A program made the position numbers and the translations under genes. Below are positions 7,313 to 39,067 of a stretch of DNA of 64,000 nucleotides, piece by piece. Numbering within the stretch: position 1 is the first letter of the stretch; every line of letters begins with the position of its first letter. The stretch comes from Aplectana chamaeleonis (taxonomy: Eukaryota; Nematoda; Chromadorea; Rhabditida; Cosmocercidae): contig JAPDOI010000021.1 in assembly GCA_029168955.1 (NCBI GenBank), positions 460,001 through 524,000 on the forward strand, read 5' to 3'. Below the pieces are notes generated by a model. That model saw only the letters and a list, made by a program, of their open reading frames with translations, was not told the DNA's origin and ran no database searches.

Positions 7313-7379
7313 AACGTGTCTCCTACAGTGCCGAGCAGATGCGATGGGCAGAAAGGCTGTGAACGGCCTGTTTTCGGGT

Positions 7380-7574: not shown

Positions 7575-7628
7575 TGCTCTGTCTTCTTCATCCTATCTCT
7601 GAGAATAACCTTCGGTAAAATGAAATGA

Positions 7629-9772: not shown

Positions 9773-10259
9773 AGGCACTGTTCGCGATAAACTCCATCCT
9801 CGAAATTTTCATGACAAACGCTTCTCGTGGCTCTCAGAAGTAGAACAGCGTCGAAAAAACGGGACGGATAGCTACCCAGGAGCCGCAAAACGGCTTATAA
9901 AAGTGGGCAAACCCGGCCAATGTGGGCAAGTCCGGCCCCTTTCCGCCCCTCGACGTGAACAAAGGAACACTCGAAATCGTGAGTTGAGCGATGGTTTCCG
10001 ATCAAAAGCCCCGCTCTTCCCTTCATTCTCAACTTCTCTCTTTACTCAGGTCAGCTCGCATACATGGGCTGCAAAAGACGGAAGTTACAAGCCTCGGACA
10101 ACTCGTCCACCATTTTCCCTAGCTCAATTTTTGAGGGACCATAACTCCATTCCCAGAAGGTCTTGTACGATTCCAGAAGCATCATTGGATTTAGAATGGG
10201 ACCGGTTTCAAGATAGGCAAAAAAAAACAGAAAAGCGATTTTCATCGCGAACAGTGCCT
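9773..10259. mobile_element. TTAA MITE (T0) inside the LINE A endonuclease
   Basis: The ends are inverted: AGGCACTGTTCGCGAT at the left, ATCGCGAACAGTGCCT at the right. The left flank is TTAA (9769-9772) and the right flank TTCA, one change from TTAA. The LINE copy at 62808-64000 reads straight across this point, which confirms an insertion. The interior carries the phrase ACAACTCGTCCACC, shared with the T1 and TB MITEs below. There is no transposase. Its TTAA duplication is of piggyBac type, but the terminal bases are not the classic piggyBac ones. Confidence 0.85.
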
Positions 10260-11460: not shown

Positions 11461-14132
11461 CAGGGTTCGGCGCGGGGTGTGGATATCCACACCGGGGGGT
11501 CTGAGCTGCGCAATGGTGGAGGGAGGGGGGTCTGAGCTCCACCGGGAGACCACATGAACCATTCTGACCGTGGGTAGTAGGTACACTGTCTAGAAAAATT
11601 TTGTTGCGAATGATTCGGTAATCATGTCCAATAAACATGAAACCTTGTAGTAATTAAATTAACGTAAATGTTGAATCTATAGTAAAGGTTCTCCTACGAT
11701 TGAATATAAGGCACATAGGTTCTGGATAGTTGTGTACTGAATTGCAAATAAGAACAGATTGGAAGCTACGGAATGGGGCGGAAGAAAAGAGAGGACGCGA
11801 TGAATAAAGTTATTGGCAAAGGCGAAGATGACGAAATGTACTAAAGAAATAAATATGTTTTATGAGGAAAACAGGTCACTTTAAATGTATGGAAAACACG
11901 CTTTAATAAGTGGTTGGATATGAAAATAGGTGCTTCAACATTATCCAGACCAGACATGGCAAAAACACTCGCTAGTTGAAAAGAGCGTCATCTAATCTGG
12001 TTACGTTTCGAATTTCATTCTCCGAAACCCACTTATACACCAAACACACGACACGGGTTCGATCCCGCAAAGTGCTTAATTTTTGCAAGACGTTAGACCT
12101 CACATTTTTTTGCAAAGTGAGTGTCACGAAAATAAGATATTCAAGTCGAGAATGGTAGATTTACCCTATATACAAATTTTCAGTCTCTAAGATGGACGCT
12201 GAAAGCCACTTCCCTGTGTGGCCCACACCTGTCGCAGGTGCGATCGCGCTGGAAGTCTACATTTTTGCAAGGTATGAGTCAGTAGAATACGATGATCGAG
12301 TCCAGCGTGGTCGATTTATCCCATATACTCACTTTCACCGTCCAACATAGATGCTGAACACCGCTACAGTATAAGGCCTCACACTTTTCTCAGGTGTGGT
12401 CCCGCCGGAAGTCGTCAATTTCGAAATTTAGGTGTGACGAGAGTAGGATATTTGAGTCCAGCGTAGTCGATTAACCCTATATACAATCTTTTGCCGTCTC
12501 AGTATAGCGCTGAAGACCGCTGCATATACTGCAGGAGAAGGTGAAAAAAATTACAAGTCAGCAAACCTAAAATAGGGTTTTAAAACAGCTGTAACTTAAG
12601 TTGCAAATGAGCTATCTCGGGTTTGAGCAAAACTAAGAAACTAGGCTTGTAACCCTACCAAATGAAACCTTAACCGATCCCAGAGGACGCTTTACAAAAA
12701 ATTTTACTAGGTGTGGACATTTGATGTTTTCAGCATAAATGTCCACACCTAGCCAGTGCATTTAGGTGTGGACATTTATGCTCAAAACATCAAATGTCCA
12801 CACCTAGTAAATTTTTTTGTAAGGCGTCCTCTGGGAGCGAGTAAAGTTTCATTCGGTAGGGTTACAAACCTAGTTTCTTAGTTTTGCTCAAACCCGGGGT
12901 AACTCTTTTGGAAGTTAAGTTACAGGTGTTTTAAAACCCTATTCCAGGTTTGTGGACTTTTTACCTTGTTCCGCTTCCTATGTAGCGCTCTTCGGCGTTA
13001 CGCTGAGGCGGTAAAAGATTGCACCCAGAGTAAATCGACCACGCTGGACTCAAATATCCTACTCTCGTCACACCTAAATTTCGAAATTGACGACTTCCGG
13101 CGGGACCACACCTGAGAAAAGTGTGAGGCCTGGTACTGTAGCGGTGTTCAGCATCTATGTTGGACGGTGAAAGTGAGTATATGGGATAAATCGACCACGC
13201 TGGACTCGACCATCGTGTTCTACTGACTCATGCCTTGCAAAAATGTAGACTTCCAGCGCGATCGCACCTGCGACAGGTGTGGGCCACACAGGGAAGTGGC
13301 TTTCAGCGTCCATCTTAGAGACTGAAAATTTGTATATAGGGTAAATCTACCACTCTCGACTCTAATATCTTATTTTCGTGACCCTTCATTTGCAAAAAAA
13401 TATGAGGTCTAACGTCTTGCAAAAATTAAGCACTTTGCGGGATCGAACCCGTGTCGTGTGTTTGGTGTATGAGTGGGTTTCGGAGAATGAAATTCGAAAC
13501 GTAACCAGATTAGATGACGCTCTTTCGAACCAGAAGTCTATACATCTGAAGTAAAATGTTCTTCTTGGACTTGCGAAATGAATTTACGAACTCATATTAA
13601 TTTAAAAACACATTTATTTCTTCGAGACATCCCGTATTCTTGAACTTAGCCAATCCCTTCATCTTCTCCACGCTTCTTTTCCACCACATATTTACCTTAG
13701 CTTCCTACCGGGAATCATTCACAATTTCTGGAAATACGTTCAAACCTATGTGTCTTACATTCAACATTAGGAGAGCCTTCACTATAATCAAAACCCTTAC
13801 TTTAGCTAAGATTTTCAAAAACGCAGGCAACTTCATGTAATCCGTCAAGAAAAACCTCGTCCGTGATCTTTTTCAATGTCAATGTCTTGTTTTTTGAAAT
13901 GGTTGTTCTTCTTCAAATTATACATCTTTTAGAATAAGTTGCTCCTTTTGTTTTAATTTTACTACAAAAACAGACAATTAACACTCCTGGGAGGAGGTCC
14001 GAGAAAATCACCAAAAATTTGACCTACTAACGCTTCTGGGAGGGGTCTGAGAAAAGCGCCAAAAGTTTGCTTTTAGAGGGTAGGGGGGGTCTGAGAAAAT
14101 TTAGCCTTGTCCACACCTCGTGCCGAACCCTG
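11461..14132. mobile_element. Non-autonomous hAT-type element, 2672 bp, in the LINE A reverse transcriptase
   Basis: The left end CAGGGTTCGGCGCGGGGT is inverted at the right end as ...GTGCCGAACCCTG, with about 21 of 23 terminal bases matching. The flanks are an exact 8-bp duplication, CCTGCAGA at 11453-11460 and 14133-14140. CAGGG-type ends plus an 8-bp duplication are diagnostic of the hAT superfamily. Near both ends the motif GGGGTCTGAG or close variants is repeated, as expected for subterminal transposase-binding sites. No transposase is encoded. Most of the interior is the 1.55-kb palindrome annotated separately. Removing the element joins IVRDLQ to the downstream HQHGVRKLHSTTTALL. Confidence 0.92.
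11976..13529. repeat. 1.55-kb imperfect palindrome with degenerate 155-bp subrepeats
   Basis: The arm AAGAGCGTCATCTAATCTGG (from 11981) is mirrored by its reverse complement ending at 13524. The inversion continues to a centre near 12755, where GGTGTGGACATTT-type sequence occurs in alternating orientation. Each arm has a degenerate tandem repeat of about 155 bp; related GCTGAA-containing starts lie at about 12191, 12348 and 12503. Each unit has a GGTGYGRTCSCGC-type segment, and the outermost copy reads GGGTTCGATCCCGC, which resembles a tRNA B box. It lies wholly within the hAT-type element. It may be an older insertion or the element's own foldback core. Confidence 0.85.
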
Positions 14133-15143
14133 CCTGCAGAGCAGAATGAGGCACAGCAACATCAACATGGGGTTAGAAAGCTTCACTCCACCACCACTGC
14201 CCTTCTGGAGATTGTCAGCTATGCGGTCGATGGGTTCAATATCAGAAAGCCTCTTAGAACAGTGGCCGTTGCCCTCGATCTAACCAAAGCATTTGATTCT
14301 GTTAACCTAGGACTTTCGTCCGAGAAACTATTGAAGTCCTCGCTACAACCGTGGCAGAAGCGTTGGATAGCAGCGTTTACGAAAGGTCGTCGGGCCAAAG
14401 TGCTATTCCAGAATCACGTCTTTGATAGTATACCTGTAGCAGCCGGTGTGCCGCAGGGTGGAGTTTTGTCACCTGCCCTCTTCAACCTGTATATTGAAGA
14501 CCTACCTGAGCCTCCTGAAGATTTGTATAAAAATTGTTGCGTATGCCGACGATATCACCATCATGTGCCGTAATCGTGACATACAGGTAGCCGCAAACAA
14601 GATCAGCGACTATCTCGTCGAGCTTAAAAACTTTCTCGATAGTATGATGCTCACAGTTTCCGCGGCGAAGTCTTCTGTTTCGGTATTCACATCTGACCCA
14701 AAGGAACACAGCGCCCAACCTGTGTTCAGGTGGGATGGTAACCTCTTGCCTACAGCGAAATTTCCCAAACTGCTGGGCCTCGTTTTGGACCCATCGCTGA
14801 AGTTTCACAAAAATGCTGAACAGAAGCGGGCAATTATCAAGGCAAAGCTTAATGTGTTGAGAGCTCTAGGAGGAACGTCATGGGGTGGCAGCAGAGAGAC
14901 AATCTTGACGACATATCGAGCTATTCTGCATCCTGCATTGGAGTATGCTGCACCTGTCTGGCAGCACATCGTGTCGGACAGTTCCTGTACTAAGATGTAG
15001 CGAATTCAGAATGCTGCACTTCGAATAGCCACTGGATGTGCAAAAAGCTCACCGATTGAGCACCTTCACGCCGAGGCCCGTATCTTGCCAGTGAAAGAGC
15101 GTTGTCAGCTCCAGGCTCAGCAGATGTTCATTGATGTCCTCAA
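14133..15143 (+). pseudogene. LINE A reverse transcriptase catalytic part and C-terminus
   Basis: The RT continues after the hAT-type insertion: VALDLTKAFDSVN (motif A), GVPQGGVLSPALFNLYIEDL (motif B), YADDITIM (motif C, the catalytic Asp pair) and FPKLLGLVLDPSLKFHKN (motif D/E region). One extra A in the A5 run at 14529-14533 shifts the frame just before YADD. A stop at 14998 replaces a sense codon between SCTKM and RIQNAALRIATGC. The C-terminal part (HLHAEARILPVKERCQLQAQ) is then broken at 15144 by a MITE. The copy is therefore inactive. The stops, the frameshift and the nested elements all point to an old insertion. Confidence 0.87.
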
Positions 15144-18421: not shown

Positions 18422-19492
18422 TTAGCTGGCGGCTGGCGGAGCGGGATGACCTCTCAACCAGTACACTGCTGTAGGTGCCATAGGAGCTCCAGTGGCCTGA
18501 ACGATACGCTTCCATTCAGAACGATTAGCCGCAATTATTTTAGCGTTAACGACACTGCACCGTTGAGATTTCAGATCAGCTTCGACTTGCTTCACCCACG
18601 TCTTCTTCGGGGCAGTTCTCTCGACCTTCCATGGTTTTGGGCGTTTTCTCCATAGCAAGCTGTGCGGTAGTCGACTGGCTTCCATTCTGCATACGTGTCC
18701 AAACCAGCGCAACCTTTTCGTTCGGATTTGTTCCTCGATTGTCGGTTGATGGTCGCAGCTGTCTCGTATAACGTCGTTGCGTATGCGATCTCTTAACGTT
18801 GTTCCGAGAATTCGCCGCAAACACCGCATTTGGAAGACCTCTAGCTTGCTGAGATCCGACTTGAGCAAGGTCCACGACTCTGAGCCGTACAATAGAATCG
18901 GCATTATAAGAGATCGGAAGATCCGCATCTTGGTCTTGATTGACACATTGCCCTTTTTCCACAGACACCAGCCTAGTGAAGCAAAAGCAGCACACGCCTG
19001 CCCGATCCTGCACTGTATCTCAGTTGTGGCCACTACCTTGCGCTGTTGCACCACCGATCCTAAGTACTTGAACTCCTCAACTTGCTGGAGCTCAGCTCCT
19101 TCGAAGAACACAGAAGCACGTGAACCGTCTGACGTCATGACTTTGGTCTTGTCCTTATTTATCCGTAGACCGTACGAATCCGCGATATCTGCTATATCCT
19201 TCATCAAATTCGTAGCTTCCATATCAGTATCGGTGAACACAGCGCTGTCGTCCGCAAACATCAAGTCTGTGAGGAACTCGTTATCGCCATATTGGACCCC
19301 TCTTCTATCTTTGAAAACCTTTCTCATAATGGCGTCGACCACAGTGTTGAATAGCAGTGGCGAAATCACATCTCCTTGCCGGACTCCTGCATTGACCGCA
19401 AATTCTTCGGACAGCTTGTCCCCGACGCGAATGCAGCTAGTGGAACCGCTGTATGTTCCCTGCAGGAGCTTCACAATTTTCTCCGGATTACA
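18422..19492 (-). pseudogene. RTE-like non-LTR retrotransposon, 3' part of the reverse transcriptase
   Basis: On the minus strand an open frame of about 356 codons holds the second half of a reverse transcriptase. It starts NPEKIVKLLQG, followed by AGVRQGDVISPLLFN (motif B), LMFADDSAVFTDT (motif C with the catalytic FADD) and INKDKTKVM, then FKYLGSVV. A C-terminal connection/thumb region follows with LLYGSESWTL and RLRWFGHVCRM, typical of RTE-type elements. Motif A and the endonuclease are missing, so the copy is 5'-truncated, the usual result of incomplete target-primed reverse transcription. The frame ends in a clean stop at 18422-18424. A GAGTGAGTGAGAG-type tail follows (plus 18385-18421), as expected for RTE microsatellite tails. 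The intact frame suggests a fairly recent insertion. Confidence 0.85.
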
Positions 19493-19735
19493 GGAATGCT
19501 GTAGACTCAGATTACAGGAATGATCAAGTTAAGGAAGTGCTGATAAGTGAGCTGTTTGCTTCATTGCACTGATAGGTATCATCCTCCTAGCGGTCAATTC
19601 CTCCACGCTCAAAAATCAACGTAAATAAGAGAGAGCCTATAGCTTTGCTACGACGGCCTCTCCAAAGGTAGTGCGCAGAAACTTAACGGGATCATCGTAC
19701 TGTAGTGCAGCATTTCCTAGAACAATAATCGGGAC

Positions 19736-20192
19736 GTCGTGAAAAGTGCTTCTGACTTCTGATGACGTCATCGGGACGTCGTGAAAAGTGCTGGCTTCTG
19801 ATGACGTCATCGGGACGTCGTGAAAAGTGCTTCTGGCTTCTGATGAGGTCATCAGGACGTCGTGAAAAGTGCTTCTGGCCTCTGATGACGTCATCGGGAC
19901 GTCGTGAAAAGTGCTTCTGGCCTCTGATGACGTCATCGGGACGTCGTGGAAAGTGCTTCTGGCTTCTGATGACGTCATCGGGACGTCGTGAAAAGTGCTT
20001 CTGGCTTCTGATGACGTCATTGGGACGTCGTGAAAAGTGCTTCTGGCTTCTGATGACGTCATCGGGACGTCGTGAAAAGTGCTTCTGGCTTCTGATGACG
20101 TCGTCGGGACGTCGTGAAAAGTGCTTCTGGCTTCTGATGACGTCATCGGGACGTCGTGAAAAGTGCTTCTGGCTTCTGATGACGTCATCGGG
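19736..20192 (-). repeat. Satellite B, short array in minus orientation, about 11 monomers
   Basis: 42-bp monomers of the same sequence as the main array, inverted. Each reads GACGTCGTGAAAAGTGC, then TTCTGGCTTC, then TGATGACGTCATC. It ends in ...GACGTCATCGGGGG, and the M1 terminus starts at 20195. The first unit is preceded by unrelated sequence. Core variants include GATGAGGTCATC (about 19843) and GACGTCGTC (about 20098). Confidence 0.96.
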
Positions 20193-20305
20193 GGACTATC
20201 TCAGACGGGGGGCTTTAAGATGTATGTATTGAAATGACCAAAAGCTTCCACGAAAGATGCTTGATACTGCTATCAATAATTGTTGTTATGAAAATTCTAT
20301 AGAAA

Positions 20306-20943
20306 TCTATCCAAAAGGGGTCTTCCAAGCGAAAGAGGTTTGGTTCGCGCCAGAAACGTTCCAACAAAAAGCGAACAATAGGAAAGAGAGGTGAGGAGAG
20401 TGTACAAAAAGTAAACAATATTTTCTCCAAGCGAAATTCTCGGTCGACTCTTCTATACAGCGAAAACGAACCGTTGCGGTATTCTACTCGGAAGTACTTT
20501 GTAGTTCCAAAAATAACTCCGATCATGCGAGAACCGTTAAAAATATACATGTATTTGTATATGCGAGTTTTCATTGAAAGGGATGATGTAAAACTGGCCA
20601 GAGCAGACAGTTAACCCCGGCTCTTGGGAAAAATGAAACAATCGAAATACAACATCAAGCAAGAGTATTCTCACATAATCTCGTGAACGAATAAAAGTCC
20701 TTTTTTTGAACCATTGCTCTTCCTCGTAAAATACCACAACGGTTTGTTTTCGCTGTATAGAAGAGTCGACCGAGAATTTCGCTTGGAGAAAATATTGTTT
20801 ACTTTTTGTACACTCTCCTCACCTCACTTTCCTATTGTTCGCTTTTTGTTGGAAGGTTTCTGGCGCGAACCAAACCTCTTTCGCTTGGAAGACCCCTTTT
20901 GGGTAGAATTGTTCACTTTTTTTTTGATATTACGCAGTAATAT
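20306..20943. mobile_element. Foldback element F2, left copy
   Basis: The arm AAAAGGGGTCTTCCAAGCG (about 20315) continues through TGTACAAAAAGTAAACAATA and GGTCGACTCTTCTATACAGC. It returns in inverse order at 20745-20905. The right outer end carries the hairpin GATATTACGCAGTAATATC (about 20920-20940). Arms are about 190 bp and the centre about 240 bp. A second copy in opposite orientation lies at 35080-35630. Confidence 0.85.
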
Positions 20944-21352
20944 CCCTGAAAAATATGCAACACTTATCAACCTTTCTGAACTGATACTATAATCAGTAAG
21001 TAATGAACAGCATCGGCACAAAATTCTCACCGTAAACAAAATTCATGATAACCAATTGATAAAGAGTAGGGTGTAAAAGAAATTGAGAGCGGTGTGTTTT
21101 CATTCACACACCGTCTCTCTCTGGAGGTGAGCGGCTGAAGCTGAACAGACTAGGGATTAGGGAAACAGCCCCACCGGTTATAAAGGTATCACGATATCTG
21201 GGCCTAAACATGGAAAACTCTGGCAAGAAAAACTGCTACACTTCCGTGAAAGTGCCGATGGCAAATTTTAAACTTGTGCAGTCAACTTGTGAAGCACGCA
21301 ACAAATGAAGCGCTACTCACATTTCGCGGCAATACGCACATATTACATGAAC
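20944..21352 (+). other. Spacer between F2 and the array; hairpin and a possible coding remnant
   Basis: 21092-21115 is a hairpin with a CGGTGTGT/ACACACCG stem. 21131-21307 is an ATG-less open frame of about 55 codons containing APPVIKVSRYLGLNMENSG and MANFKLVQSTCEA. The RYLGLN phrase is reminiscent of the region after RT motif C, so an old retroelement fragment is possible, but no catalytic motif is present. Weak. Confidence 0.25.
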
Positions 21353-24300
21353 CGCTCTGCACTTTTCACGACGTCCCGATGACGTCATCAGAAGCCCGAA
21401 GCACTTTTCACGACGTGCCGATGACGTCATCCGAAGCCCGAAGCACTTTTCACGACGTCCCGATGACGTCATTAGAAGCCCGAAGCACTTTTCACGACGC
21501 CCTTATGACGTCATTAGAAGCCCGAAGCACTTTTCACGACGTCCCGATGACGTCATTAGAAGCCCGAAGCACTTTTCACGACGTCCCGATGACGCCATCA
21601 GAAGCCCGAAGCACTTTTCACGACGTCCCGATGACGCCATCAGAAGCCAGATGCACTTTTCACGACGTCCCGATGACGTCATCAGAAGCCAGATGCACTT
21701 TTCACGACGTCCCGATGACGTCATCAGAAGCCCGAAGCACTTTTCACGACGTCCCGATGACGTCATCCGAAGCCCGAAGCACTTTTCACGACGTCCCGAT
21801 GACGTCATCAGAAGCCAGATGCACTTTTCACGACGTCCCGATGACGTCATCAGAAGCCCGAAGCACTTTTCACGACGTCCCGATGACGTCATCAGAAGCC
21901 AGATGCACTTTTCACGACGTGCCGATGACGTCATCCGAAGCCCGAAGCACTTTTCACGACGTCCCGATGACGTCATCAGAAGCCAGATGCACTTTTCACG
22001 ACGTCCCGATGACGTCATCAGAAGCCCGAAGCACTTTTCACGACGTCCCGATGACGTCATCCGAAGCCCGAAGCACTTTTCACGACGTCCCGATGACGTC
22101 ATCAGAAGCCCGAAGCACTTTTCACGACGTCCCGATGACGTCATCAGAAGCCCGAAGCACTTTTCACGACGTCCCGATGACGTCATCAGAAGCCAGATGC
22201 ACTTTTCACGACGTCCCGATGACGTCATCAGAAGCCAGATGCACTTTTCACGACGTCCCGATGACGTCATCAGAAGCCAGATGCACTTTTCACGACGTCC
22301 CGATGACGTCATCAGAAGCCCGAAGCACTTTTCACGACGTCCCGATGACGTCATCAGAAGCCAGATGCACTTTTCACGACGTCCCGATGACGTCATCAGA
22401 AGCCCGAAGCACTTTTCACGACGTCCCGATGACGTCATCAGAAGCCAGATGCACTTTTCACGACGTCCCGATGACGTCATCAGAAGCCCGAAGCACTTTT
22501 CACGACGTCCCGATGACGTCATCAGAAGCCAGATGCACTTTTCACGACGTGCCGATGACGTCATCCGAAGCCCGAAGCACTTTTCACGACGTCCCGATGA
22601 CGTCATCAGAAGCCAGATGCACTTTTCACGACGTCCCGATGACGTCATCAGAAGCCAGATGCACTTTTCACGACGTCCCGATGACGTCATCAGAAGCCAG
22701 ATGCACTTTTCACGACGTCCCGATGACGTCATCAGAAGCCAGATGCACTTTTCACGACGTCCCGATGACGTCATCAGAAGCCCGAAGCACTTTTCACGAC
22801 GTCCCGATGACGTCATCAGAAGCCCGAAGCACTTTTCACGACGTCCCGATGACGTCATCAGAAGCCCGAAGCACTTTTCACGACGTCCCGATGACGTCAT
22901 CAGAAGTCAGATGCACTTTTGACGACGTCCCGATGACGTCATGAGAAGCCCGAAGCACTTTTCACGACGTCCCGATGACGTCATCAGAAGCCAGAAGCAC
23001 TTTTCACGACGTCCCGATGACGTCATCAGAAGCCCGAAGCACTTTTCACGACGTCCCGATGACGTCATCAGAAGCCAGATGCACTTTTCACGACGTCCCG
23101 ATGACGTCATCAGAAGCCCGAAGCACTTTTCACGACGTCCCGATGACGTCATCAGAAGCCCGAAGCACTTTTCACGACGTCCCGATGACGTCATCAGAAG
23201 CCAGATGCACTTTTCACGACGTCCCGATGACGTCATCAGAAGCCCGAAGCACTTTTCACGACGTCCCGATGACGTCATCAGAAGCCAGAAGCACTTTTCA
23301 CGACGTCCCGATGACGTCATCAGAAGCCCGAAGCACTTTTCACGACGTCCCGATGACGTCATCAGAAGCCAGATGCACTTTTCACGACGTCCCGATGACG
23401 TCATCAGAAGCCAGATGCACTTTTCACGACGTCCCGATGACGTCATCAGAAGCCCGAAGCACTTTTCACGACGTGCCGATGACGTCATCCGAAGCCCGAA
23501 GCACTTTTCACGACGTCCCGATGACGTCATCAGAAGCCAGATGCACTTTTCACGACGTCCCGATGACGTCATCAGAAGCCCGAAGCACTTTTCACGACGT
23601 CCCGATGACGTCATCAGAAGCCAGATGCACTTTTCACGACGTGCCGATGACGTCATCCGAAGCCCGAAGCACTTTTCACGACGTCCCGATGACGTCATCA
23701 GAAGCCAGATGCACTTTTCACGACGTCCCGATGACGTCATCCGAAGCCCGAAGCACTTTTCACGACGTCCCGATGACGTCATCAGAAGCCAGATGCACTT
23801 TTCACGACGTCCCGATGACGTCATCAGAAGCCAGATGCACTTTTCACGACGTCCCGATGACGTCATCAGAAGCCAGATGCACTTTTCACGACGTCCCGAT
23901 GACGTCATCAGAAGCCAGATGCACTTTTCACGACGTCCCGATGACGTCATCAGAAGCCAGATGCACTTTTCACGACGTCCCGATGACGTCATCAGAAGCC
24001 AGATGCACTTTTCACGACGTCCCGATGACGTCATCCGAAGCCCGAAGCACTTTTCACGACGTCCCGATGACGTCATCAGAAGCCCGAAGCACTTTTCACG
24101 ACGTCCAGATGACGTCATCAGAAGCCAGATGCACTTTTCACGACGTCCCGATGACGTCATCAGAAGCCCGAAGCACTTTTCACGACGTCCCGATGACGTC
24201 ATCAGAAGCCAGATGCACTTTTCACGACGTCCCGATGACGTCATCAGAAGCCCGAAGCACTTTTCACGACGTCCCGATGACGTCATCAGAAGCCCGAAGC

Positions 24301-27300
24301 ACTTTTCACGACGTCCCGATGACGTCATCAGAAGCCCGAAGCACTTTTCACGACGTGCCGATGACGTCATCCGAAGCCAGATGCACTTTTCACGACGTCC
24401 CGATGACGTCATCAGAAGCCAGATGCACTTTTCACGACGTCCAGATGACGTCATCAGAAGCCAGATGCACTTTTCACGACGTCCCGATGACGTCATCAGA
24501 AGCCCGAAGCACTTTTCACGACGTCCCGATGACGTCATCAGAAGCCCGAAGCACTTTTCACGACGTGCCGATGACGTCATCCGAAGCCCGAAGCACTTTT
24601 CACGACGTCCCGATGACGTCATCCGAAGCCAGAAGCACTTTTCACGACGTCCCGATGACGTCATCAGAAGCCAGATGCACTTTTCACGACGTCCCGATGA
24701 CGTCATCAGAAGCCAGATGCACTTTTCACGACGTCCCGATGACGTCATCAGAAGCCCGAAGCACTTTTCACGACGTCCCGATGACGTCATCAGAAGCCAG
24801 ATGCACTTTTCACGACGTCCCGATGACGTCATCAGAAGCCAGATGCACTTTTCACGACGTCCCGATGACGTCATCAGAAGCCAGATGCACTTTTCACGAC
24901 GTCCCGATGACGTCATCAGAAGCCAGATGCACTTTTCACGACGTCCCGATGACGTCATCAGAAGCCAGATGCACTTTTCACGACGTCCCGATGACGTCAT
25001 CAGAAGCCCGAAGCACTTTTCACGACGTCCCGATGACGTCATCAGAAGCCAGATGCACTTTTCACGACGTCCCGATGACGTCATCAGAAGCCAGATGCAC
25101 TTTTCACGACGTCCCGATGACGTCATCAGAAGCCAGATGCACTTTTCACGACGTCCCGATGACGTCATCAGAAGCCCGAAGCACTTTTCACGACGTCCCG
25201 ATGACGTCATCAGAAGCCCGAAGCACTTTTCACGACGTCCCGATGACGTCATCAGAAGCCAGATGCACTTTTCACGACGTCCCGATGACGTCATCAGAAG
25301 CCAGATGCACTTTTCACGACGTCCCGATGACGTCATCAGAAGCCAGATGCACTTTTCACGACGTCCCGATGACGTCATCAGAAGCCAGATGCACTTTTCA
25401 CGACGTCCCGATGACGTCATCAGAAGCCAGATGCACTTTTCACGACGTCCCGATGACGTCATCAGAAGCCAGATGCACTTTTCACGACGTCCCGATGACG
25501 TCATCAGAAGCCAGATGCACTTTTCACGACGTCCCGATGACGTCATCAGAAGCCAGATGCACTTTTCACGACGTCCCGATGACGTCATCAGAAGCCAGAT
25601 GCACTTTTCACGACGTCCCGATGACGTCATCAGAAGCCCAGATGCACTTTTCACGACGACCCGATGACGTCATCAGAAGCCAGATGCACTTTTCACGACG
25701 TCCCGATGACGTCATCAGAAGCCAGATGCACTTTTCACGACGTCCCGATGACGTCATCAGAAGCCCGAAGCACTTTTCACGACGTCCCGATGACGTCATC
25801 AGAAGCCAGATGCACTTTTCACGACGTCCCGATGACATCATCAGAAGCCCGAAGCACTTTTCACGACGTCCCGATGACGTCATCAGAAGCCAGGTGCACT
25901 TTCACGACGTCCCGATGACGTCATCAGAAGCCAGATGCACTTTTCACGACGTCCCGATGACGTCATCAGAAGCCCGAAGCACTTTTCACGACGTCCCGAT
26001 GACGTCATCAGAAGCCCGAAGCACTTTTCACGACGTCCCGATGACGTCATCCGAAGCCCGAAGCACTTTTCACGACGTCCCGATGACGTCATCAGAAGCC
26101 AGATGCACTTTTCACGACGTCCCGATGACGTCATCAGAAGCCCGAAGCACTTTTCACGACGTCCCGATGACGTCATCAGAAGCCCGAAGCACTTTTCACG
26201 ACGTCCCGATGACGTCATCAGAAGCCAGATGCACTTTTCACGACGTCCCGATGACGTCATCAGAAGCCAGATGCACTTTTCACGACGTCCCGATGACGTC
26301 ATCAGAAGCCAGATGCACTTTTCACGACGTCCCGATGACGTCATCAGAAGCCCGAAGCACTTTTCACGACGTCCCGATGACGTCATCAGAAGCCAGATGC
26401 ACTTTTCACGACGTCCCGATGACGTCATCAGAAGCCCGAAGCACTTTTCACGACGTCCCGATGACGTCATCAGAAGCCAGATGCACTTTTCACGACGTCC
26501 CGATGACGTCATCAGAAGCCAGATGCACTTTTCACGACGTCCCGATGACGTCATCAGAAGCCCGAAGCACTTTTCACGACGTCCCGATGACGTCATCAGA
26601 AGCCAGATGCACTTTTCACGACGTCCCGATGACGTCATCAGAAGCCAGATGCACTTTTCACGACGTCCCGATGACGTCATCAGAAGCCAGATGCACTTTT
26701 CACGACGTCCCGATGACGTCATCAGAAGCCAGATGCACTTTTCACGACGTCCCGATGACGTCATCAGAAGCCAGATGCACTTTTCACGACGTCCCGATGA
26801 CGTCATCAGAAGCCAGATGCACTTTTCACGACGTCCCGATGACGTCATCAGAAGCCAGATGCACTTTTCACGACGTTCCGATGACGTCATCAGAAGCCAG
26901 ATGCACTTTTCACGACGTCCCGATGACGTCATCAGAAGCTAGAAGCACTTCTCACGACGTCCCGATGACGTCATCAGAAGCCAGATGCACTTTTCACGAC
27001 GTCCCGATGACGTCATCAGAAGCCAGATGCACTTTTCACGACGTCCCGATGACGTCATCAGAAGCCAGATGCACTTTCACGACGTCCCGATGACGTCATC
27101 AGAAGCCCGAAGCACTTTTCACGACGTCCCGATGACGTCATCAGAAGCCAGATGCACTTTTCACGACGTCCCGATGACGTCATCAGAAGCCAGATGCACT
27201 TTTCACGACGTCCCGATGACGTCATCAGAAGCCAGATGCACTTTTCACGACGTCCCGATGACGTCATCAGAAGCCCGAAGCACTTTTCACGACGTCCCGA

Positions 27301-30300
27301 TGACGTCATCAGAAGCCAGATGCACTTTTCACGACGTCCCGATGACGTCATCAGAAGCCAGATGCACTTTTCACGACGTCCCGATGACGTCATCAGAAGC
27401 CAGATGCACTTTCACGACGTCCCGATGACGTCATCAGAAGCCAGATGCACTTTTCACGACGTCCCGATGACGTCATCAGAAGCCAGATGCACTTTTCACG
27501 ACGTCCCGATGACGTCATCAGAAGCCAGATGCACTTTTCACGACGTCCCGATGACGTCATCAGAAGCCAGATGCACTTTTCACGACGTCCCGATGACGTC
27601 ATCAGAAGCCAGATGCACTTTTCACGACGTCCCGATGACGTCATCAGAAGCCAGATGCACTTTTCACGACGTCCCGATGACGTCATCAGAAGCCAGATGC
27701 ACTTTTCACGACGTCCCGATGACGTCATCAGAAGCCAGATGCACTTTTCACGACGTCCCGATGACGTCATCAGAAGCCAGATGCACTTTACACGACGTCC
27801 CGATGACGTCATCAGAAGCCAGATGCACTTTACACGACGTCCCGATGACGTCATCAGAAGCCAGATGCACTTTTCACGACGTCCCGATGACGTCATCAGA
27901 AGCCAGATGCACTTTTCACGACGTCCCGATGACGTCATCAGAAGCCAGATGCACTTTTCACGACGTCCCGATGACGTCATCAGAAGCCCGAAGCACTTTT
28001 CACGACGTCCCGATGACGTCATCAGAAGCCAGATGCACTTTTCACGACGTCCCGATGACGTCATCAGAAGCCAGATGCACTTTTCACGACGTCCCGATGA
28101 CGTCATCAGAAGCCAGATGCACTTTTCACGACGTCCCGATGACGTCATCAGAAGCCAGATGCACTTTTCACGACGTCCCGATGACGTCATCAGAAGCCAG
28201 ATGCACTTTTCACGACGTCCCGATGACGTCATCAGAAGCCAGATGCACTTTTCACGACGTCCCGATGACGTCATCAGAAGCCAGATGCACTTTTCACGAC
28301 GTCCAGATGACGTCATCAGAAGCCAGATGCACTTTTCACGACGTCCCGATGACGTCATCAGAAGCCAGATGCACTTTTCACGACGTCCCGATGACGTCAT
28401 CAGAAGCCAGATGCACTTTTCACGACGTCCCGATGACGTCATCAGAAGCCAGATGCACTTTTCACGACGTCCCGATGACGTCATCAGAAGCCCGAAGCAC
28501 TTTTCACGACGTCCCGATGACGTCATCAGAAGCCCGAAGTACTTTTCACGACGTGCCGATGACGTCATCCGAAGCCAGATGCACTTTTCACGACGTCCCG
28601 ATGACGTCATCAGAAGCCAGATGCACTTTTCACGACGTCCAGATGACGTCATCAGAAGCCCGAAGCACTTTTCACGACGTGCCGATGACGTCATCCGAAG
28701 CCCGAAGCACTTTTAACGACGCCCCGATGACGTCATCAGAAGCACGAAGCAATTTTCACGACGTGCCGATGACGTCGTCCGAAGCCCCAAGCAATTTTCA
28801 CGACGTGCCGATGACGTCATCCGAAGCCCGAATCACTTTTCACGACGTCCCGATGACGTCATCAGAAGCCCGAAGCACTTTTTACGACTTCCCGATGACG
28901 TCATCAGAAGCTCGAAGCAATTTTCACGTTGTGCCGATGACGTCATCCGAAGCCCGAAGCACTTTTCACGACGTGCCGATGACGTCATCCGAAGCCAGAT
29001 GCACTTTTCACGACGTCCCGATGACGTCATCAGAAGCCAGATGCACTTTTCACGACGTCCAGATGACGTCATCAGAAGCCAGATGCACTTTTCACGACGT
29101 CCCGATGACGTCGTCAGAAGCCAGATGCACTTTTCACGACGTCCCGATGACGTCATCAGAAGCCCGAAGCACTTTTCACGACGTCCCGATGACGTCATCA
29201 GAAGCCAGATGCACTTTTCACGACGTCCCGATGACGTCATCAGAAGCCAGATGCACTTTTCACGACGTCCCGATGACGTCATCAGAAGCCAGATGCACTT
29301 TTCACGACGTCCCGATGACGTCATCAGAAGCCAGATGCACTTTTCACGACGTCCAGATGACGTCATCAGAAGCCAGATGCACTTTTCACGACGTCCCGAT
29401 GACGTCATCAGAAGCCAGATGCACTTTTCACGACGTCCCTATGACGTCATCAGAAGCCAGACGCACTTTTCACGACGCCCCGATGACGTCATCAGAAGCC
29501 AGATGCACTTTTCACGACGTCCCGATGACGTCATCAGAAGCCAGATGCACTTTTCACGACGTCCCGATGACGTCATCAGAAGCCAGATGCACTTTTCACG
29601 ACGTCCCGATGACGTCATCAGAAGCCAGATGCATTTTTCATGACGTCCCGATGACGTCATCAGAAGCCAGATGCACTTTTCGCGACGTCCCGATGACGTC
29701 ATCAGAAGGCAGATGCACTTTTCACGCGTCCCAATGACGTCGTCAGAAGCCAGATGCACTTTTCACGGCGTCCCGATGACCTCATCAGAAGCCAGATGCA
29801 CTTTTCACGACGTCCCGATGACGTCATCAGAAGCCAGATGCACTTTTCACGACGTCCCGATGACGTCATCAGAAGCCAGATGCACTTTTCACGACCTCCC
29901 GATGACGTCATCAGAAGCCAGATGCACTTTTCACGACGTCCCGATGACGTCATCAGAAGCCAGATGCACTTTTCACGACGTCCCGATGACGTCATCAGAA
30001 GCCAGATGCACTTTTCACGACGTCCCGATGACGTCATCAGAAGCCAGATGCACTTTTCACGACGTCCCGATGACGTCATCAGAAGCCAGATGCACTTTTC
30101 ACGACGTCCCGATGACGTCATCAGAAGCCAGATGCACTTTTCACGACGTCCCGATGACGTCATCAGAAGCCAGATGCACTTTTCACGACGTCCCGATGAC
30201 GTCATCAAAAGCCAGGTGCACTTTTCACGACGTCCCGCTGACGTCATCAGAAGCCAGATGCACTTTTCACGACGTCCCGATGACGTCATCAGAAGCCAGA

Positions 30301-33300
30301 TGCACTTTTCACGACGTCCCGATGACGTCATCAGAAGCCAGATGCACTTTTCACGACGTCCCGATGACGTCATCAGAAGCCAGATGCACTTTTCACGACG
30401 TCCCGATGACGTCATCAGAAGCCAGATGCACTTTTCACGACGTCCCGATGACGTCATCAGAAGCCAGATGCACTTTTCACGACGTCCCGATGACGTCATC
30501 AGAAGCCAGATGCACTTTTCACGACGTCCAGATGACGTCATCAGAAGCCAGATGCACTTTTCACGACGTCCCGATGACGTCATCAGAAGCCAGATGCACT
30601 TTTCACGACGTCCCGATGACGTCATCAGAAGCCAGATGCACTTTTCACGACGTCCCGATGACGTCATCAGAAGCCAGATGCACTTTTCACGACGTCCCGA
30701 TGACGTCATCAGAAGCCAGATGCACTTTTCACGACGTCCCGATGACGTCATCAGAAGCCAGATGCACTTTTCACGACGTCCCGATGACGCCATCAGAAGC
30801 CAGATGCACTTTTCACGACGTCCCGATGACGTCATCAGAAGCCAGATGCACTTTTCACGACGTCCAGATGACGTCATCAGAAGCCAGATGCACTTTTCAC
30901 GACGTCCCGATGACGTCATCAGAAGCCCGAAGCACTTTTCACGACGTCCCGATGACGTCATCAGAAGCCAGATGCACTTTTCACGACGTCCCGATGACGT
31001 CATCAGAAGCCAGATGCACTTTTCACGACGTCCCGATGACGTCATCAGAAGCCAGATGCACTTTTCACGACGTCCCGATGACGTCATCAGAAGCCAGATG
31101 CACTTTTCACGACGTCCCGATGACGTCATCAGAAGCCAGATGCACTTTTCACGACGTCCCGATGACGTCATCAGAAGCCAGATGCACTTTTCACGACGTC
31201 CCGATGACGTCATCAGAAGCCAGATGCACTTTTCACGACGTCCCGATGACGTCATCAGAAGCCAGATGCACTTTTCACGACGTCCAGATGACGTCATCAG
31301 AAGCCAGATGCACTTTTCACGACGTCCCGATGACGTCATCAGAAGCCAGATGCACTTTTCACGACGTCCCGATGACGTCATCAGAAGCCAGATGCACTTT
31401 TCACGACGTCCCGATGACGTCATCAGAAGCCCGAAGCACTTTTCACGACGTCCAGATGACGTCATCAGAAGCCAGATGCACTTTTCACGACGTCCCGATG
31501 ACGTCATCAGAAGCCAGATGCACTTTTCACGACGTCCCGATGACGTCATCAGAAGCCAGATTCACTTTTCACGACGTCCCGATGACGTCATCAGAAGCCC
31601 GAAGCACTTTTCACGACGTCCCGATGACGTCATCAGAAGCCAGATGCACTTTTCACGACGTCCCGATGACGTCATCAGAAGCCAGATGCACTTTTCACGA
31701 CGTCCCGATGACGTCATCAGAAGCCCGAAGCACTTTTCACGACGTGCCGATGACGTCATCAGAAGCCAGATGCACTTTTCACGACGTCCCGATGACGTCA
31801 TCAGAAGCCAGATGCACTTTTCACGACGTCCCGATGACGTCATCAGAAGCCAGATGCACTTTTCACGACGTCCCGATGACGTCATCAGAAGCCAGATGCA
31901 CTTTTCTCGACGTCCCGATGACGTCATCAGAAGCCAGATGCACTTTTCACGACGTCCCGATGACGTCATCAGAAGCCAGATGCACTTTTCACGACGTCCC
32001 GATGACGTCATCAGAAGCCAGATGCACTTTTCACGACGTCCCGATGACGTCATCAGAAGCCAGATGCACTTTTCTCGACGTCCCGATGACGTCATCAGAA
32101 GCCAGATGCACTTTTCTCGACGTCCCGATGACGTCATCAGAAGCCAGATGCACTTTTCTCGACGTCCCGATGACGTCATCAGAAGCCAGATGCACTTTTC
32201 ACGACGTCCAGATGACGTCATCTGAAGCCAGATGCACTTTTCACGACGTCCCGATGACGTCATCAGAAGCCAGATGCACTTTTCACGACGTCCCGATGAC
32301 GTCATCAGAAGCCAGATGCACTTTTCACGACGTCCAGATGACGTCATCAAAAGCCAGATGCACTTTTCACGACGTCCCGATGACGTCATCAGAAGCCAGA
32401 TGCACTTTTCTCGACGTCCCGATGACGTCATCAGAAGCCAGATGCACTTTTCACGACGTCCCGATGACGTCATCAGAAGCCAGATGCACTTTTCACGACG
32501 TCCCCATGACGTCATCAAAAGTCAGATGCACTTTTCACGACGTCCAGATGACGTCATCAGAAGCCAGATGCACTTTTCACGACGTCCCGATGACGTCATC
32601 AGAAGCCCGAAGCACTTTTCACGACGTGCCGATGACGTCATCAGAAGCCAGATGCACTTTTCACGACGTCCCGATGACGTCATCAGAAGCCCGAAGCACT
32701 TTTCACGACGTCCAGATGACGTCATCAGAAGCCAGATGCACTTTTCACGACGTCCCGATGACGTCATCAGAAGCCAGATGCAGTTTTCACGACGTCCCGA
32801 TGACGTCATCAGAAGCCAGATGCACTTTTCACGACGTCCAGATGACGTCATCAAAAGCCAGATGCACTTTTCACGACGTCCCGATGACGTCATCAGAAGC
32901 CAGATGCACTTTTCTCGACGTCCCGATGACGTCATCAGAAGCCAGATGCACTTTTCACGACGTCCCGATGACGTCATCAGAAGCCAGATGCACTTTTCAC
33001 GACGTCCCCATGACGTCATCAAAAGTCAGATGCACTTTTCACGACGTCCAGATGACGTCATCAGAAGCCAGATGCACTTTTCACGACGTCCCGATGACGT
33101 CATCAGAAGCCCGAAGCACTTTTCACGACGTGCCGATGACGTCATCAGAAGCCAGATGCACTTTTCACGACGTCCCGATGACGTCATCAGAAGCCCGAAG
33201 CACTTTTCACGACGTCCAGATGACGTCATCAGAAGCCAGATGCACTTTTCACGACGTCTCGATGACGTCATCAGAAGCCAGATGCACTTTTCACGACGTC

Positions 33301-34108
33301 CCGATGACGTCATCAGAAGCCAGATTCACTTTTCACGACGTCCCGATGACGTCATCAGAAGCCCGAAGCACTTTTCACGACGTGCCGATGACGTCATCAG
33401 AAGCCAGATGCACTTTTCACGACGTCCCGATGACGTCATCAGAAGCCAGATGCACTTTTCACGACGTCCCGATGACGTCATCAGAAGCCCGAAGCACCTT
33501 TCACGACGTGCCGATGACGTCATCAGAAGCCAGATGCACTTTTCACGACGTCCCGATGACGTCATCAGAAGCCAGATGCACTTTTCACGACGTCCCGATG
33601 ACGTCATCAGAAGCCAGATGCACTTTTCACGACGTCCCGATGACGTCATCAGAAGCCCGAAGCACTTTTCACGACGTCCAGATGACGTCATCAGAAGCCA
33701 GATGCACTTTTCACGACGTCCCGATGACGTCATCAGAAGCCAGATGCACTTTTCACGACGTCCCGATGACGTCATCAGAAGCCCGAAGCACTTTTCACGA
33801 CGTCCAGATGACGTCATCAGAAGCGAGATGCACTTTTCACGACGTCCCGATGACGTCATCCGAAGCCCGAAGCACTTTTCACGACGTCCAGATGACGTCA
33901 TCAGAAGCCAGATGCACTTTTCACGACGTCCCGATGACGTCATCAGAAGCCCGAAGCACTTTTCACGACGTGCCGATGACGTCATCCGAAGCCCGAAGCA
34001 CTTTTCACGACGTCCCGATGACGTCATCAGAAGCCCGAAGCACTTTTCACGACGTCCCGATGACGTCATCAGAAGCCCGAAGCACTTTTCACGACGTGCC
34101 GATGACGT
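21353..34108 (+). repeat. Satellite B main array: about 304 monomers of 42 bp with CRE palindromes
   Basis: The monomer is CACTTTTCACGACGTCCC + GATGACGTCATC + AGAAGCC(A/C)GA(T/A)G. It contains the 12-bp palindrome GATGACGTCATC, whose core TGACGTCA is the consensus cAMP-response element for CREB/ATF bZIP factors. A second GACGTC core lies 11 bp upstream, centre to centre. Two main classes differ at CCAGATG versus CCCGAAG; minor variants are CCAGATGACG, TTTCTCGACG and GTGCCG. Core losses are few, for example at 21589, 21630, 25831, 28769, 29104, 29776 and 30787. A decayed patch lies at 28690-28960. One-base deletions (GCACTTTCACG) recur at about 25897, 27071 and 27406. Long open frames on both strands follow from the 3n unit length. 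Confidence 0.98.
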
Positions 34109-34233
34109 ATTCAGAATCCCCACTCACCTACAAATCGATTACTAACCAGCCTACGTACCCCCTACCAACTTACCTGTCTGCCAAGTTAATTGCAACGACC
34201 ATTGGCTATTAGCAGTGAGGACTGAAAAGCGTG

Positions 34234-34275
34234 ACGGCCCACGGCCTACGGCCTACGGCTTACGGCTCACGGCCT
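34234..34275 (+). repeat. Six 7-bp repeats ACGGCYY
   Basis: Tandem ACGGCCC, ACGGCCT twice, ACGGCTT, ACGGCTC, ACGGCCT. It sits between the end of satellite B and the right M1 subterminal region. Confidence 0.8.
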
Positions 34276-34690
34276 ACTGCGCACACCATGAAAATTTCTT
34301 AAGCTTTCGGGCTCACAACATTGTTATTTGTGAACCGATTTGGCTGAAATTTGGACAGCATGTGTCTTCTGGACCCCTTCACTTATATCCAGAAGGAAAT
34401 CTTCAGAAATTCTGGTTTAGAGATTCTATAAACTATTTTATAAAATTCTAAGTGATCACAAGGCCTAGGCAAAACCAAACCTCTCCAGCCGCTTCGCGGC
34501 TGGAGCGATAAGCTCTGGTACATCCCTAGTGACCTGTTGATTTCGATTATCACCAGCAGCGGAGCGGTGGGCCTCGATCAAATATAACTAGTGATAAGGG
34601 AGTTTCGACGGAAAAGCCACCGCTCCGCGCCGTGATAACCGAGAACATGAGTTCACTTGGAATGAAACAGAGTCTACTTCGATTTATAGC
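34276..34690. other. Right internal spacer of M1-long with nested hairpins
   Basis: CCAGCCGCTTCGCGGCTGG at about 34485 is a tight hairpin. GGAGCGGTGG (about 34559) and CCACCGCTCC (about 34617) form a wider inverted pair. No coding potential. Confidence 0.5.
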
Positions 34691-34755
34691 GTTTTCTGTA
34701 GGTGGTTTATTTGATTTCTGTCTTGTTTGCTGGGTGGCCCCCCGTCTATGATAAT

Positions 34756-34818
34756 CCCGTCATCGAAACGTCGTGAAAAGTGCATCTGGCTTCTGATGAC
34801 GTCCTCGGGACGTCGTCT
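34756..34818 (-). repeat. Lone satellite B monomer, minus orientation, next to the M1 right end
   Basis: GTCATCGAAACGTCGTGAAAAGTGCATCTGGCTTCTGATGACG-like sequence, one monomer plus a partial one. The CRE core here is decayed (GATGACGTCCTC). It lies about 90 bp upstream of the first ATG of the candidate gene at 34911, so it is a possible leftover promoter-proximal site. That role is inference. Confidence 0.85.
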
Positions 34819-34910: not shown

Positions 34911-35823
34911 ATGGATCAAGAATCGAACAATTCAGGTGCTCCAGAGGCGGTTAATGTAAATTTCTGTAATTATAACTCTTTCACAAAGACGAGAAGTCGG
35001 TGTATATTAGCGGCCTATGTATGCACCGAACAAGTAAGCGTAATGAAGTATGCTAGTTTTGCATGAATTACATACATATGATATTACTGCGTAATATCGA
35101 TAAAAAGTGAACAATTCTATCAAAAAGGGGTCTTCCAAGCGAAAGAGTTTTGGTTCGAGTCAGAAACGTTCCAACAAAAAGGGAACAATAGGAAAGTGAA
35201 ATGAAGAGAGTGTACAAAAAGTGAACAATATAATTTCAAGGCGATATTCTTGGTCGACTTTCTTCTAAACAGCGAAAACAAACCGTTGTGATATTTTACG
35301 AGGAAGAGTTTAGTGTTCTCTAGAAAACGGCTTTTATTCCTTTCTCGACGTTTTATGGAAATACTCTTGTTTGATGCTGTACTTCTATTCTGCAGTTTCG
35401 CTTCTCCTTACAGCTGGAGCTAGCCATCTGTGTAAGTCTTTTCGAAATCATCCTCAGTTTTGATGATAAGTATTAGGTTTACATGCATATACATTTTAAT
35501 GGTTCTTGCGTAGTCAGAACCATTTTGGGAACCACAAAGTGCTTCCGTGTAGAACACCGCAACGGTTTGTTTTCGCTGTTTAGAAGAAAGTCGACCAAGA
35601 ATATCGCCTTGAAATTATATCACTAATTAGGCTCGGAGACACCTGGCATATGGCACCGTATGATGGAGTTCTCATCTATTTATTCGTCCATACTAATACA
35701 TGTATACTGAATCATTTGTTTCAGATCTCTCCTAAGAACTACAACTGCTTCCAAGATCATGTAGAGGTTCATATGAGGCAAGTGCACAATGTGATGCTCA
35801 AAAGCGGGGCTATTGTAACATAG
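34911..35823 (+). CDS. Candidate two-exon gene, small protein with a zinc-finger-like C-terminal helix
   Basis: Exon 1 is 34911-35033 and ends GAACAA before a GTAAGC donor. Exon 2 is 35725-35823, after the acceptor TTTGTTTCAG. Phase 0 is kept across the junction and the frame ends in TAG. The product is 73 aa, or 91 aa if the in-frame ATG at 34857 is used. The start at 34911 is preferred because a good acceptor, TTCACTGCAG, lies 20 bp before it, as for a trans-spliced leader. The exon 2 peptide contains CFQDHVEVHMRQVHN, which resembles the helix of a C2H2 finger (HMRxxH), but the upstream Cys pair is not correctly spaced, so a working finger is doubtful. The 691-bp intron contains a foldback element. 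No homologue is recognised. Confidence 0.42.
35080..35630. mobile_element. Foldback element F2, right copy, inverted relative to the left copy
   Basis: It starts with the ATATTACTGCGTAATATCG hairpin, then AAAAAGGGGTCTTCCAAGCG and GTGTACAAAAAGTGAACAAT. The arm returns inverted at about 35555-35625 but is cut short. The hairpin end faces satellite B, as in the left copy, so the pair is mirror-symmetric about the array. It lies within the intron of the candidate gene at 34911-35823. Confidence 0.82.
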
Positions 35824-38003: not shown

Positions 38004-38358
38004 TTAATGTATTCGTAATAATAAGTCGGAAGAACTTGTGGGTGGTTATCACGTACGCTATGAAAAACTCATGCGGACTCCTCTGGGTGTGAACCAGCAG
38101 AGGTAGATGTGTTCGAGGAAAGCGAGGTGGTTGATGGTTATAGTAGAAGTCGAAGTGAAAGGTCAATTACGGTGGAATTGTTTTCATGAAAGGCTGTAGG
38201 GCGGGTTTGCCAATTTCTTCATTTTTCCGGGCTTCATTTTTACATTGCTATCTTCTGGGTGACTTTGTGCTTCAGTTAATTACTCTGACAGAAAAGCTGT
38301 TATAAAATGCTCATATTTTGGATAACTTCATTGTGAATCCTTCTGTCTTGCGTCTTAA
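38004..38358. other. Short intergenic gap between MITEs
   Basis: About 350 bp without recognised features. Confidence 0.3.
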
Positions 38359-39010
38359 AGGCAGCATACACGCTCGCAAGCATAGTCGAGATAACAGCAT
38401 AGATAGGTCCGCACGGCCCGTACTATGTCGTCAACGACGTTTGGAGCGCTGAAAACTGTCCAGGATGACAATATTTGACAATGTTTGAACAATCATGCCT
38501 TGCACGCCCGTATTTTCACACCCCTTCGAGTAACATAATGAGAATCGATACTTGAGAAAACGTGTGATAATTGAGAGTGATAGCACTATCAAATGGGAGT
38601 GCACGAGATAAATAGCTTGGTTTACTTGAGTATAACATGTCTGCATACCTATTGACTCTCGTACACTTTCGAGAATGCCGCTCTACTTTGACTGACCTCT
38701 TGAAATGGAGGATTTTATCAGTGCACAAACATGTTATATTGAGGTAAATCGAGTTTTTTCTCTACTGCACTCCCTTTTTATAGTGCTATCATTCTAAGTT
38801 ATCACATGTTTTCTCAAGTATCGATTCTCATTCTGTTACTCGAAGGGGTGTGAAAATACGGGCGTGGAAGGCAAGATTGCTCAAACATTGTCAAATATTG
38901 TCATCCTGGACAGTTTTCAGCGCTTCAAACGTCGTTGACGACACAGAACGGGCCGTGCGGACCTATCTATGCTGTTATCTCGACTATGCTTGCGAGCGTG
39001 TATGCTGCCT
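38359..39010. mobile_element. TTAA foldback MITE T3, 652 bp, near-complete palindrome
   Basis: AGGCAGCATACACGCTCGC at the left and GCGAGCGTGTATGCTGCCT at the right, with TTAA on both sides (38355-38358 and 39011-39014). The arms stay complementary for about 240 bp each, through GATAACAGCATAGATAGG, CTGTCCAGGATGACAATA and GAGAATCGATACTTGAGAAA. As a palindromic transcript it would form a long double-stranded hairpin. Confidence 0.93.
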
Positions 39011-39067
39011 TTAAGGCTCATTCATAGCAGGTCGCTTCGACTAGTCGCGTCACTGCCAAGAGTTACA

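Follow-up and report, generated by a model that had tools for sequence, protein, structure and literature searches.

A 64,000-bp stretch of the nematode Aplectana chamaeleonis (C21:460001-524000 of the 1.04-Gb assembly, hereafter the window) raised two questions: to what kind of DNA does a 12.8-kb tandem array repeating the CREB/ATF response element (CRE) TGACGTCA about 300 times belong, and why does this one site persist in it? The array (21358..34116, plus strand) was composed of 303.9 copies of a 42-bp monomer with 96% matches (Tandem Repeats Finder), and its 8-base core TGACGTCA was assigned as a CREB/ATF response element by sequence match only. The array very probably represented the internal tandem repeat of a HINE-type element (Helentron-associated interspersed element), i.e., a non-autonomous rolling-circle transposon (non-autonomous Helentron); this identity rested on the termini of the element and on an empty site (see below).

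TGACGTCA occurred 305 times in the window, compared to a mean of 1.29 over 100 shuffles; no shuffle came up to this count. In all, 295 of these perfect sites were located in 21353-34116, which bore out the roughly 300 sites in 12.8 kb proposed by the initial annotation, and 10 were located elsewhere in the window: a lone site was found at 19130, outside both CRE arrays, and nine intact sites were counted in a smaller outer array (see below), for which about 11 had been proposed. GATGACGTCATC, the full 12-bp palindrome containing the TGACGTCA core, was present in 287 copies in 21358-34116. The two monomer classes previously reported at the segment AGAAGCC(A/C)GA were recovered, with A in 215 and C in 87 of 302 monomers; position 1 was T in 209, A in 91, G in 1, and C in 1 monomer, and each of the five diagnostic columns of the big array (1, 18, 20, 33, and 40) lay outside the palindrome. 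The monomers displayed a mean pairwise difference of 1.85 of 42 positions, and block duplications were found within the array (e.g., 10 monomers recurring at lag 12); such low divergence plus block copies made up a pattern as expected of recent amplification. Long open frames ran across the array since 42 is a multiple of 3, and a protein-coding repeat was rejected on this ground; an Rfam search gave no match at gathering thresholds.

The HINE-type element (20306..34508, plus strand; 14,203 bp) enclosed the entire big array, and it was delimited by its termini, its size, the empty site in loci L032 and L033, and the ends of its relatives, with a one-base uncertainty in the borders, which lie at 20306-34508 or at 20307-34509. 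It displayed the following structure from 5' to 3': (i) a 192-bp inverted repeat with arms 95% complementary to each other, the left arm (20303..20494, plus strand) beginning 3 bases outside the element and being separated by 224 bp from the right arm (20719..20910, minus strand); (ii) the 5' subterminal inverted repeat (subTIR) AGAGGTTTGGTT (20334..20345, plus strand; coordinates hand-counted from the 5' terminus); (iii) the internal array; (iv) an ACGGCCT-type 7-bp microsatellite (34234..34277, plus strand) between the array and the 3' end; (v) the 3' subTIR, namely the reverse complement of AGAGGTTTGGTT (34473..34484, minus strand; likewise hand-counted); and (vi) the stem-loop CTCCAGCCGC-TTC-GCGGCTGGAG (34483..34505, plus strand), which had a 10-bp stem and a 3-nt loop and ended 3 bases from the terminus. 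The 53-nt stretch at the 3' end folded at -13.3 kcal/mol (z -3.46), with none of 200 shuffles equally good, and the terminal hairpin was found at one end of the element only.

The surroundings of this element were composed of the pieces of another copy in opposite orientation, all on the minus strand: (i) an array remnant of 11.1 copies (19728..20192), orientated opposite to the big array; (ii) an internal module in two parts, one running up to the insertion point (20193..20305, aligned to L032 and L033) and the other continuing beyond it (34509..34757, aligned to L032/L033 as far as 34700), with GTCTATGATAATCCC at 34744-34758; (iii) 1.4 monomers of the 42-bp repeat (34758..34816; low-stringency window search, 95% over 59 bp); and (iv) a truncated 5' inverted-repeat region (35080..35620). 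A single module had one part at the inner edge of the small array and its other part before the 1.4 monomers: L032 and L033 contained this module intact, and the alignment of the window to both of them ended at 20306 and resumed at 34508. Since L032 and L033 carried the pre-insertion site, the big array belonged to an element inserted into an older relative of its own family, while the older copy accounted for the module, the 1.4 monomers, and the small array in inverted orientation. The two junctions of this copy shared AT compared to L032 and L033; only T was common across the six arrays with both ends, and thus no duplication longer than one base was supported. The nested insertion together with its uninterrupted relatives gave clean termini for the family.

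The sequence comparison was applied to 11 arrays, namely those of nine fetched loci (L031 to L039) together with the two of the window. The nine fetched arrays were located at nine places on two contigs (four on C1 and five on C2), and they were 0.6-6.2 kb long. Seven of the 11 arrays (the big array of the window and six others) had a common 3' flank with a sharp boundary, and this flank contained subterminal AACCAAACCTCT, the stem-loop three bases from the end, and, further in, the ACGGCCT-type microsatellite with variable length. L036 had about 200 bp of the common 3' flank without its terminus; L031 and L037 had little in common beyond the array itself, and the small array of the window contained no common 3' flank. 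The 5' ends began with TCTATCC or TCTGTAA (or a near variant), followed by GGGGTCTTCC or a near variant, and 28 bases separated the 5' terminus from AGAGGTTTGGTT or a near variant. The 5' end was absent from L033 and from the older window copy, and a 5' match at the small array was not counted, being an arm of the inverted repeat of its neighbor. Both termini in the expected orientation were identified in 6 of the 11 arrays and at least one terminus in 9 of the 11, with L037 lacking either. The array was orientated as expected in each of the eight cases where a 3' hairpin followed it and in each of the seven that had their own 5' end, and the right target base was T in all eight arrays with a 3' end.

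HINEs are described by subTIRs, a 3' palindrome, a microsatellite, central repeats in fixed orientation, and no target duplication (PMC4067079 and PMC7492417). The element studied here displayed (i) 12-bp subTIRs at both ends, AGAGGTTTGGTT and its reverse complement (at least 11 bp being the length for a shared family); (ii) a stem-loop near the 3' terminus, with the same end in six other arrays; (iii) nothing beyond one base as target-site duplication, and target sites with T on the right, in keeping with the T-rich or TT targets of HINEs; and (iv) central tandem repeats whose orientation relative to the termini was constant, with a reversed hairpin in L036 as the exception. Canonical Helitron hallmarks were only partly found: 5' TC was present, but CGA instead of CTRR followed the 3' hairpin, and the insertion between A and T did not hold, the left target base being A in three and T in three of the six arrays with both ends.

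Several observations weighed against the HINE-type identity: (i) the 3' hairpin of L031 lay 1,257 bp past the array, compared to 325-400 bp in seven others; (ii) the sole hairpin in the fetched stretch of L036 was the reversed one, and the left target base of this locus, which had the 5' end only, was C; (iii) the 5' microsatellite of Cg_HINE type was not found, the microsatellite lying 3' of the array; (iv) the 5' end consisted of the 192-bp inverted repeat; and (v) the hairpin was present at L065, a locus without the 42-bp array. Among the three loci fetched by the hairpin alone, L066 and L067 held the 42-bp array and L065 did not. The sequence of L065 partly resembled a mariner transposase in reverse (by eye); given a hairpin without an array beside a mariner-like stretch, the terminal hairpin may be common to more than one element family. 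As to the microsatellite, the mite families carry microsatellites or tandem repeats in some copies only (PMC4067079).

A long and homogeneous array would also be accounted for by a classical satellite of pericentromeric or centromeric type next to which the element lies by chance, but this was very improbable, because the arrays occurred at many places with transposon termini, mostly at similar distances; a free-standing satellite was likewise rejected in view of the transposon termini flanking the arrays. Of the term satellite used by the initial annotation, the tandem tract was thus real, and what had to be revised was its status: the tract was the interior of the HINE-type element at about 20306-34508, nested in an older relative. 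The two opposite-orientation arrays flanking a spacer in the window suggested a foldback transposon of the kind of Tetris in Drosophila virilis, which has long inverted ends of tandem repeats, but this was next to impossible, since the two arrays were two elements, the module of the small array continued past the big element, L032 and L033 carried the module uninterrupted (an empty site that refuted a foldback), and the terminal hairpin was found at one end only.

For the HINE-type element, the literature on its relatives suggests a course of events in which an autonomous Helentron would have supplied the Rep/helicase and the 3' stem-loop would have acted as terminator; a HINE copy would have transposed by rolling circle into the older copy; the internal array may have expanded by rolling-circle or unequal-exchange amplification, also according to that literature.

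The element was further compared with known systems. Reportedly, the ISX element of Drosophila miranda is a Helitron. A close likeness was to Cg_HINE of the Pacific oyster, which shared the subTIRs, the 3' palindrome, the microsatellite, a central satellite-like array of constant orientation, no target duplication, and genome-wide dispersal (PMC7492417); its longest reported array contained 29 monomers, compared to about 304 in one copy here, and arrays of at least five monomers made up 9% of the oyster sample. Different from Cg_HINE were the microsatellite 3' of the array, the 192-bp 5' inverted repeat, and the 42-bp monomer with a constrained CRE. Nested and truncated HINE copies are described in the oyster as well (PMC12628747), and arrays of this satellite-like kind have already been published for HINEs, including nesting and growth into satellites (PMC7492417 and PMC12628747). 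DINE-1 and HINE-Mo (PMC4067079) were alike in their 12-15 bp subTIRs, 3' stem-loop near the terminus, and T-rich or TT targets; the subTIR lay 28 bases from the 5' terminus here versus 2-4 in the mite families, and the 5' TC start together with a left target base of T, A, or once C set the present element apart from both. ISX resembled it as a transposon dispersing a protein-binding site, with 77 dispersed sites and demonstrated dosage-compensation binding (PMC4384637), compared to >100,000 inferred, sequence-matched sites here. Tetris resembled it in that transposon repeats seed a satellite (PMC4079207); Tetris has foldback ends, while the inverted arrays here stemmed from two nested elements. 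No title in title-and-abstract listings of one open library described such an array, which is no proof of absence. What stood out here was the length of the array, the number of copies of a single consensus site across the genome, and the hint of constraint upon it.

With regard to that number, the monomer pattern CACTTTTCACGACGTNCCGATGACGTCATC with at most two mismatches gave 73,162 plus 77,156, i.e., 150,318 matches in the genome (0 for the reversed-pattern control), corresponding by arithmetic to about 6.3 Mb or 0.6% of the genome; the 3' hairpin with at most one mismatch gave 1,754 plus 1,793, i.e., 3,547 matches (control, 0). From these 150,318 matches and the share of intact cores, we infer >100,000 consensus CREB/ATF sites genome-wide. 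By arithmetic, a genome of this size with 43% G+C (the value of the window without its arrays) would contain about 15,000 copies of TGACGTCA by chance, and therefore the arrays would dominate its supply of TGACGTCA. The repeat was found in none of 22 further stretches (20 contig starts plus 2 stretches beyond the window, 95 kb), which was uninformative for a clumped repeat at about 0.6%. There were no exact matches in viral and prokaryote genome contigs, a search in which records of the own genome may be excluded.

The question why the site persists was addressed by the variation along the monomer. The initial annotation had held the core to be better kept than its neighborhood. Within the big array (302 of 303 monomers, one with more than eight differences dropped), the alignment of all monomers gave lower diversity in the core, with 7 changes in 8 columns, whereas the remaining non-diagnostic columns averaged 2.62 changes each; permuting positions gave 0.019 for the core and 0.041 for the 12-mer, and the core depletion of this array alone was suggestive only. 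In the 10 other arrays (503 monomers), the 12-mer ranked first and the core second (as an 8-base window) in least variability among 42 circular windows. A palindrome-blind segmentation, with monomers re-cut from the 30 positions outside the 12-mer, was meant to remove the circularity of this result: in 502 monomers from 10 arrays, the rate of change per position was 0.0207 for the core, 0.0246 for the 12-mer, and 0.058 for the 30 positions outside, while positions 3-20, which were also in the search pattern, varied at 0.0575; the 12-mer was below the rest in 9 of 11 arrays, and it again ranked first among the windows.

With every variant entered a single time per locus, the 842 monomers of 13 arrays gave 6.4 distinct variants per position in the core versus 10.8 in the 30 positions outside the 12-mer; the ratio of the core to the other 34 positions was 0.58 (bootstrap over loci, 0.41-0.87), and the core ranked second and the 12-mer fourth of 42 circular windows. 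L067 represented a diverged subfamily with 9 of 42 differences from the window consensus, none of them within the 12-mer (chance 0.03), and its palindrome was lengthened to 16 bp, CTGATGACGTCATCAG. The central CpG was changed in eight monomers over 11 arrays; much greater variation was seen at another CpG (positions 15-16) and at position 20 (C), mainly through variants amplified in, e.g., L035. Taken over the pooled arrays, the CRE palindrome was among the slowest-changing parts of the monomer, so that the claim of a better-kept core held on pooled independent arrays and not in each array alone.

Against a constrained palindrome stood the following points: (i) no core depletion by rate was seen in 3 of 13 arrays (L032, L039, and the small array of the window), and by distinct variants L067 was also without depletion, making 4 of 13; (ii) in L066, found by the hairpin alone, the 12-mer varied at 0.0754 compared to 0.0778 at the other 30 positions, this locus supporting depletion in the core with the outer part of the 12-mer varying; (iii) 9 of 13 arrays were found with a pattern including the palindrome, and two (L066 and L067) by the hairpin alone; (iv) the position permutations ignored relatedness among monomers; and (v) monomers with more than 11 differences in the 30 positions were excluded, uncounted.

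As to the nature of the constraint, only one of the 156 base pairs affected in 801 monomers was compensated, and because compensating changes were so rare, the sequence and not pairing as such was kept; hairpin correction as the cause of conservation was disfavored by the same count.

In dispersed copies of a mobile element, one exact regulator consensus site stayed here while the rest of the monomer drifted, so that the family offers a testable case of a transposon array perhaps shaped by a host DNA-binding protein. As a tentative best guess, binding by a CREB/ATF-type bZIP protein might favor the monomers that keep the CRE and so retain it; bound arrays might stay open, escape silencing, or be amplified more. 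A genome profile search gave four bZIP_1 matches above the cut-off, compared to none in 14 control genomes. The best of them, L068 (C1844:82401-82660), was CREB-like in both domain halves and carried an in-frame stop, and it is a likely pseudogene derived from a CREB gene of the host; the second was nearest to GCN4, and no intact CREB gene was located among these four matches. Roles of the array in bZIP titration, as an enhancer, or in forming a chromatin domain, as put forward by the initial annotation, are speculation.

It is doubtful, though conceivable, that the palindrome serves the array itself as a signal in cis for amplification or replication, working without a host transcription factor, with the monomers that retain it being copied more. 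Satellite monomers often hold palindromes that possibly aid proliferation (PMC12628747, a 2025 review), and the big array was young and homogeneous with block copies, as such a signal would have it; however, a pairing-based role would tolerate paired changes, of which a single compensated pair was found, and the array at 1-7312 of the window (see below) had the same period and was amplified without TGACGTCA.

Rather unlikely is the absence of any selection, with sampling, shared monomer ancestry, and chance producing the depletion and the CRE being coincidental. The weak signal within the big array, the undepleted arrays listed above, the upper bootstrap limit of 0.87, and the expectation of a 12-bp palindrome in about 1% of random 42-bp units (arithmetic) would fit it; the window ranks of core and 12-mer, by rate, when blind, and by distinct variants, and the unchanged palindrome of the diverged subfamily L067 argued against it.

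Joining retention by a host bZIP protein with the genome-wide load gives the widest reading, namely that the HINE family has made the genome a field of >100,000 CREB/ATF sites that are preserved by host bZIP binding. As a whole this is improbable; if true, CREB/ATF sites would stand at about nine times chance expectation in 1.04 Gb, and the element would exploit a bZIP factor (open chromatin, germline activity) or act as a genome-wide sink.

The window contained further repeats. A second 42-bp array at 1-7312 (174 copies, 77%) was unrelated in sequence to the CRE monomer and contained no TGACGTCA; it ended beside a relative of about 200 bp of the older element's module (7376-7580), and a 188-bp inverted repeat lay nearby (arms 7630-7817 and 8030-8217). 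The regions 1-7312 and 7376-8217 probably represented a further family of HINE type that has an equal monomer length and CACTTTTC in common with the present one. A common origin of the two 42-bp arrays was rejected: CACTTTTC was shared, but 43 of 200 shuffles aligned equally well. The 10 kb preceding the window (L040, C21:450001-460000) was N throughout, and the array at 1-7312 may be cut off there.

Remnants of retrotransposons were also identified. A truncated RTE-like reverse transcriptase (18422-19528, minus strand; RVT_1, E 2.9e-17) had 268 relatives, the best of them unnamed, and the named ones among the 120 listed came from nematodes, fish, scorpion, rotifer, insects, and molluscs, among others. 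Frame-broken pieces of a non-LTR retrotransposon at 9093-15000 (plus strand) and 62808-63945 (minus strand) contained endonuclease and reverse transcriptase plus a PHD finger below the cut-off, and they had one unnamed protein relative in each of two database searches; a 73% copy of part of this retrotransposon lay near the right end of the window. The motif VERNPGP upstream of the PHD finger is what we take to be a likeness to the 2A peptide motif. Large inverted repeats were found at 11972-13533 (arms 576 bp, 93%) and 38349-39020 (arms 295 bp, 91%), and long (AT)n microsatellites at 53084-53256 and 62422-62603.

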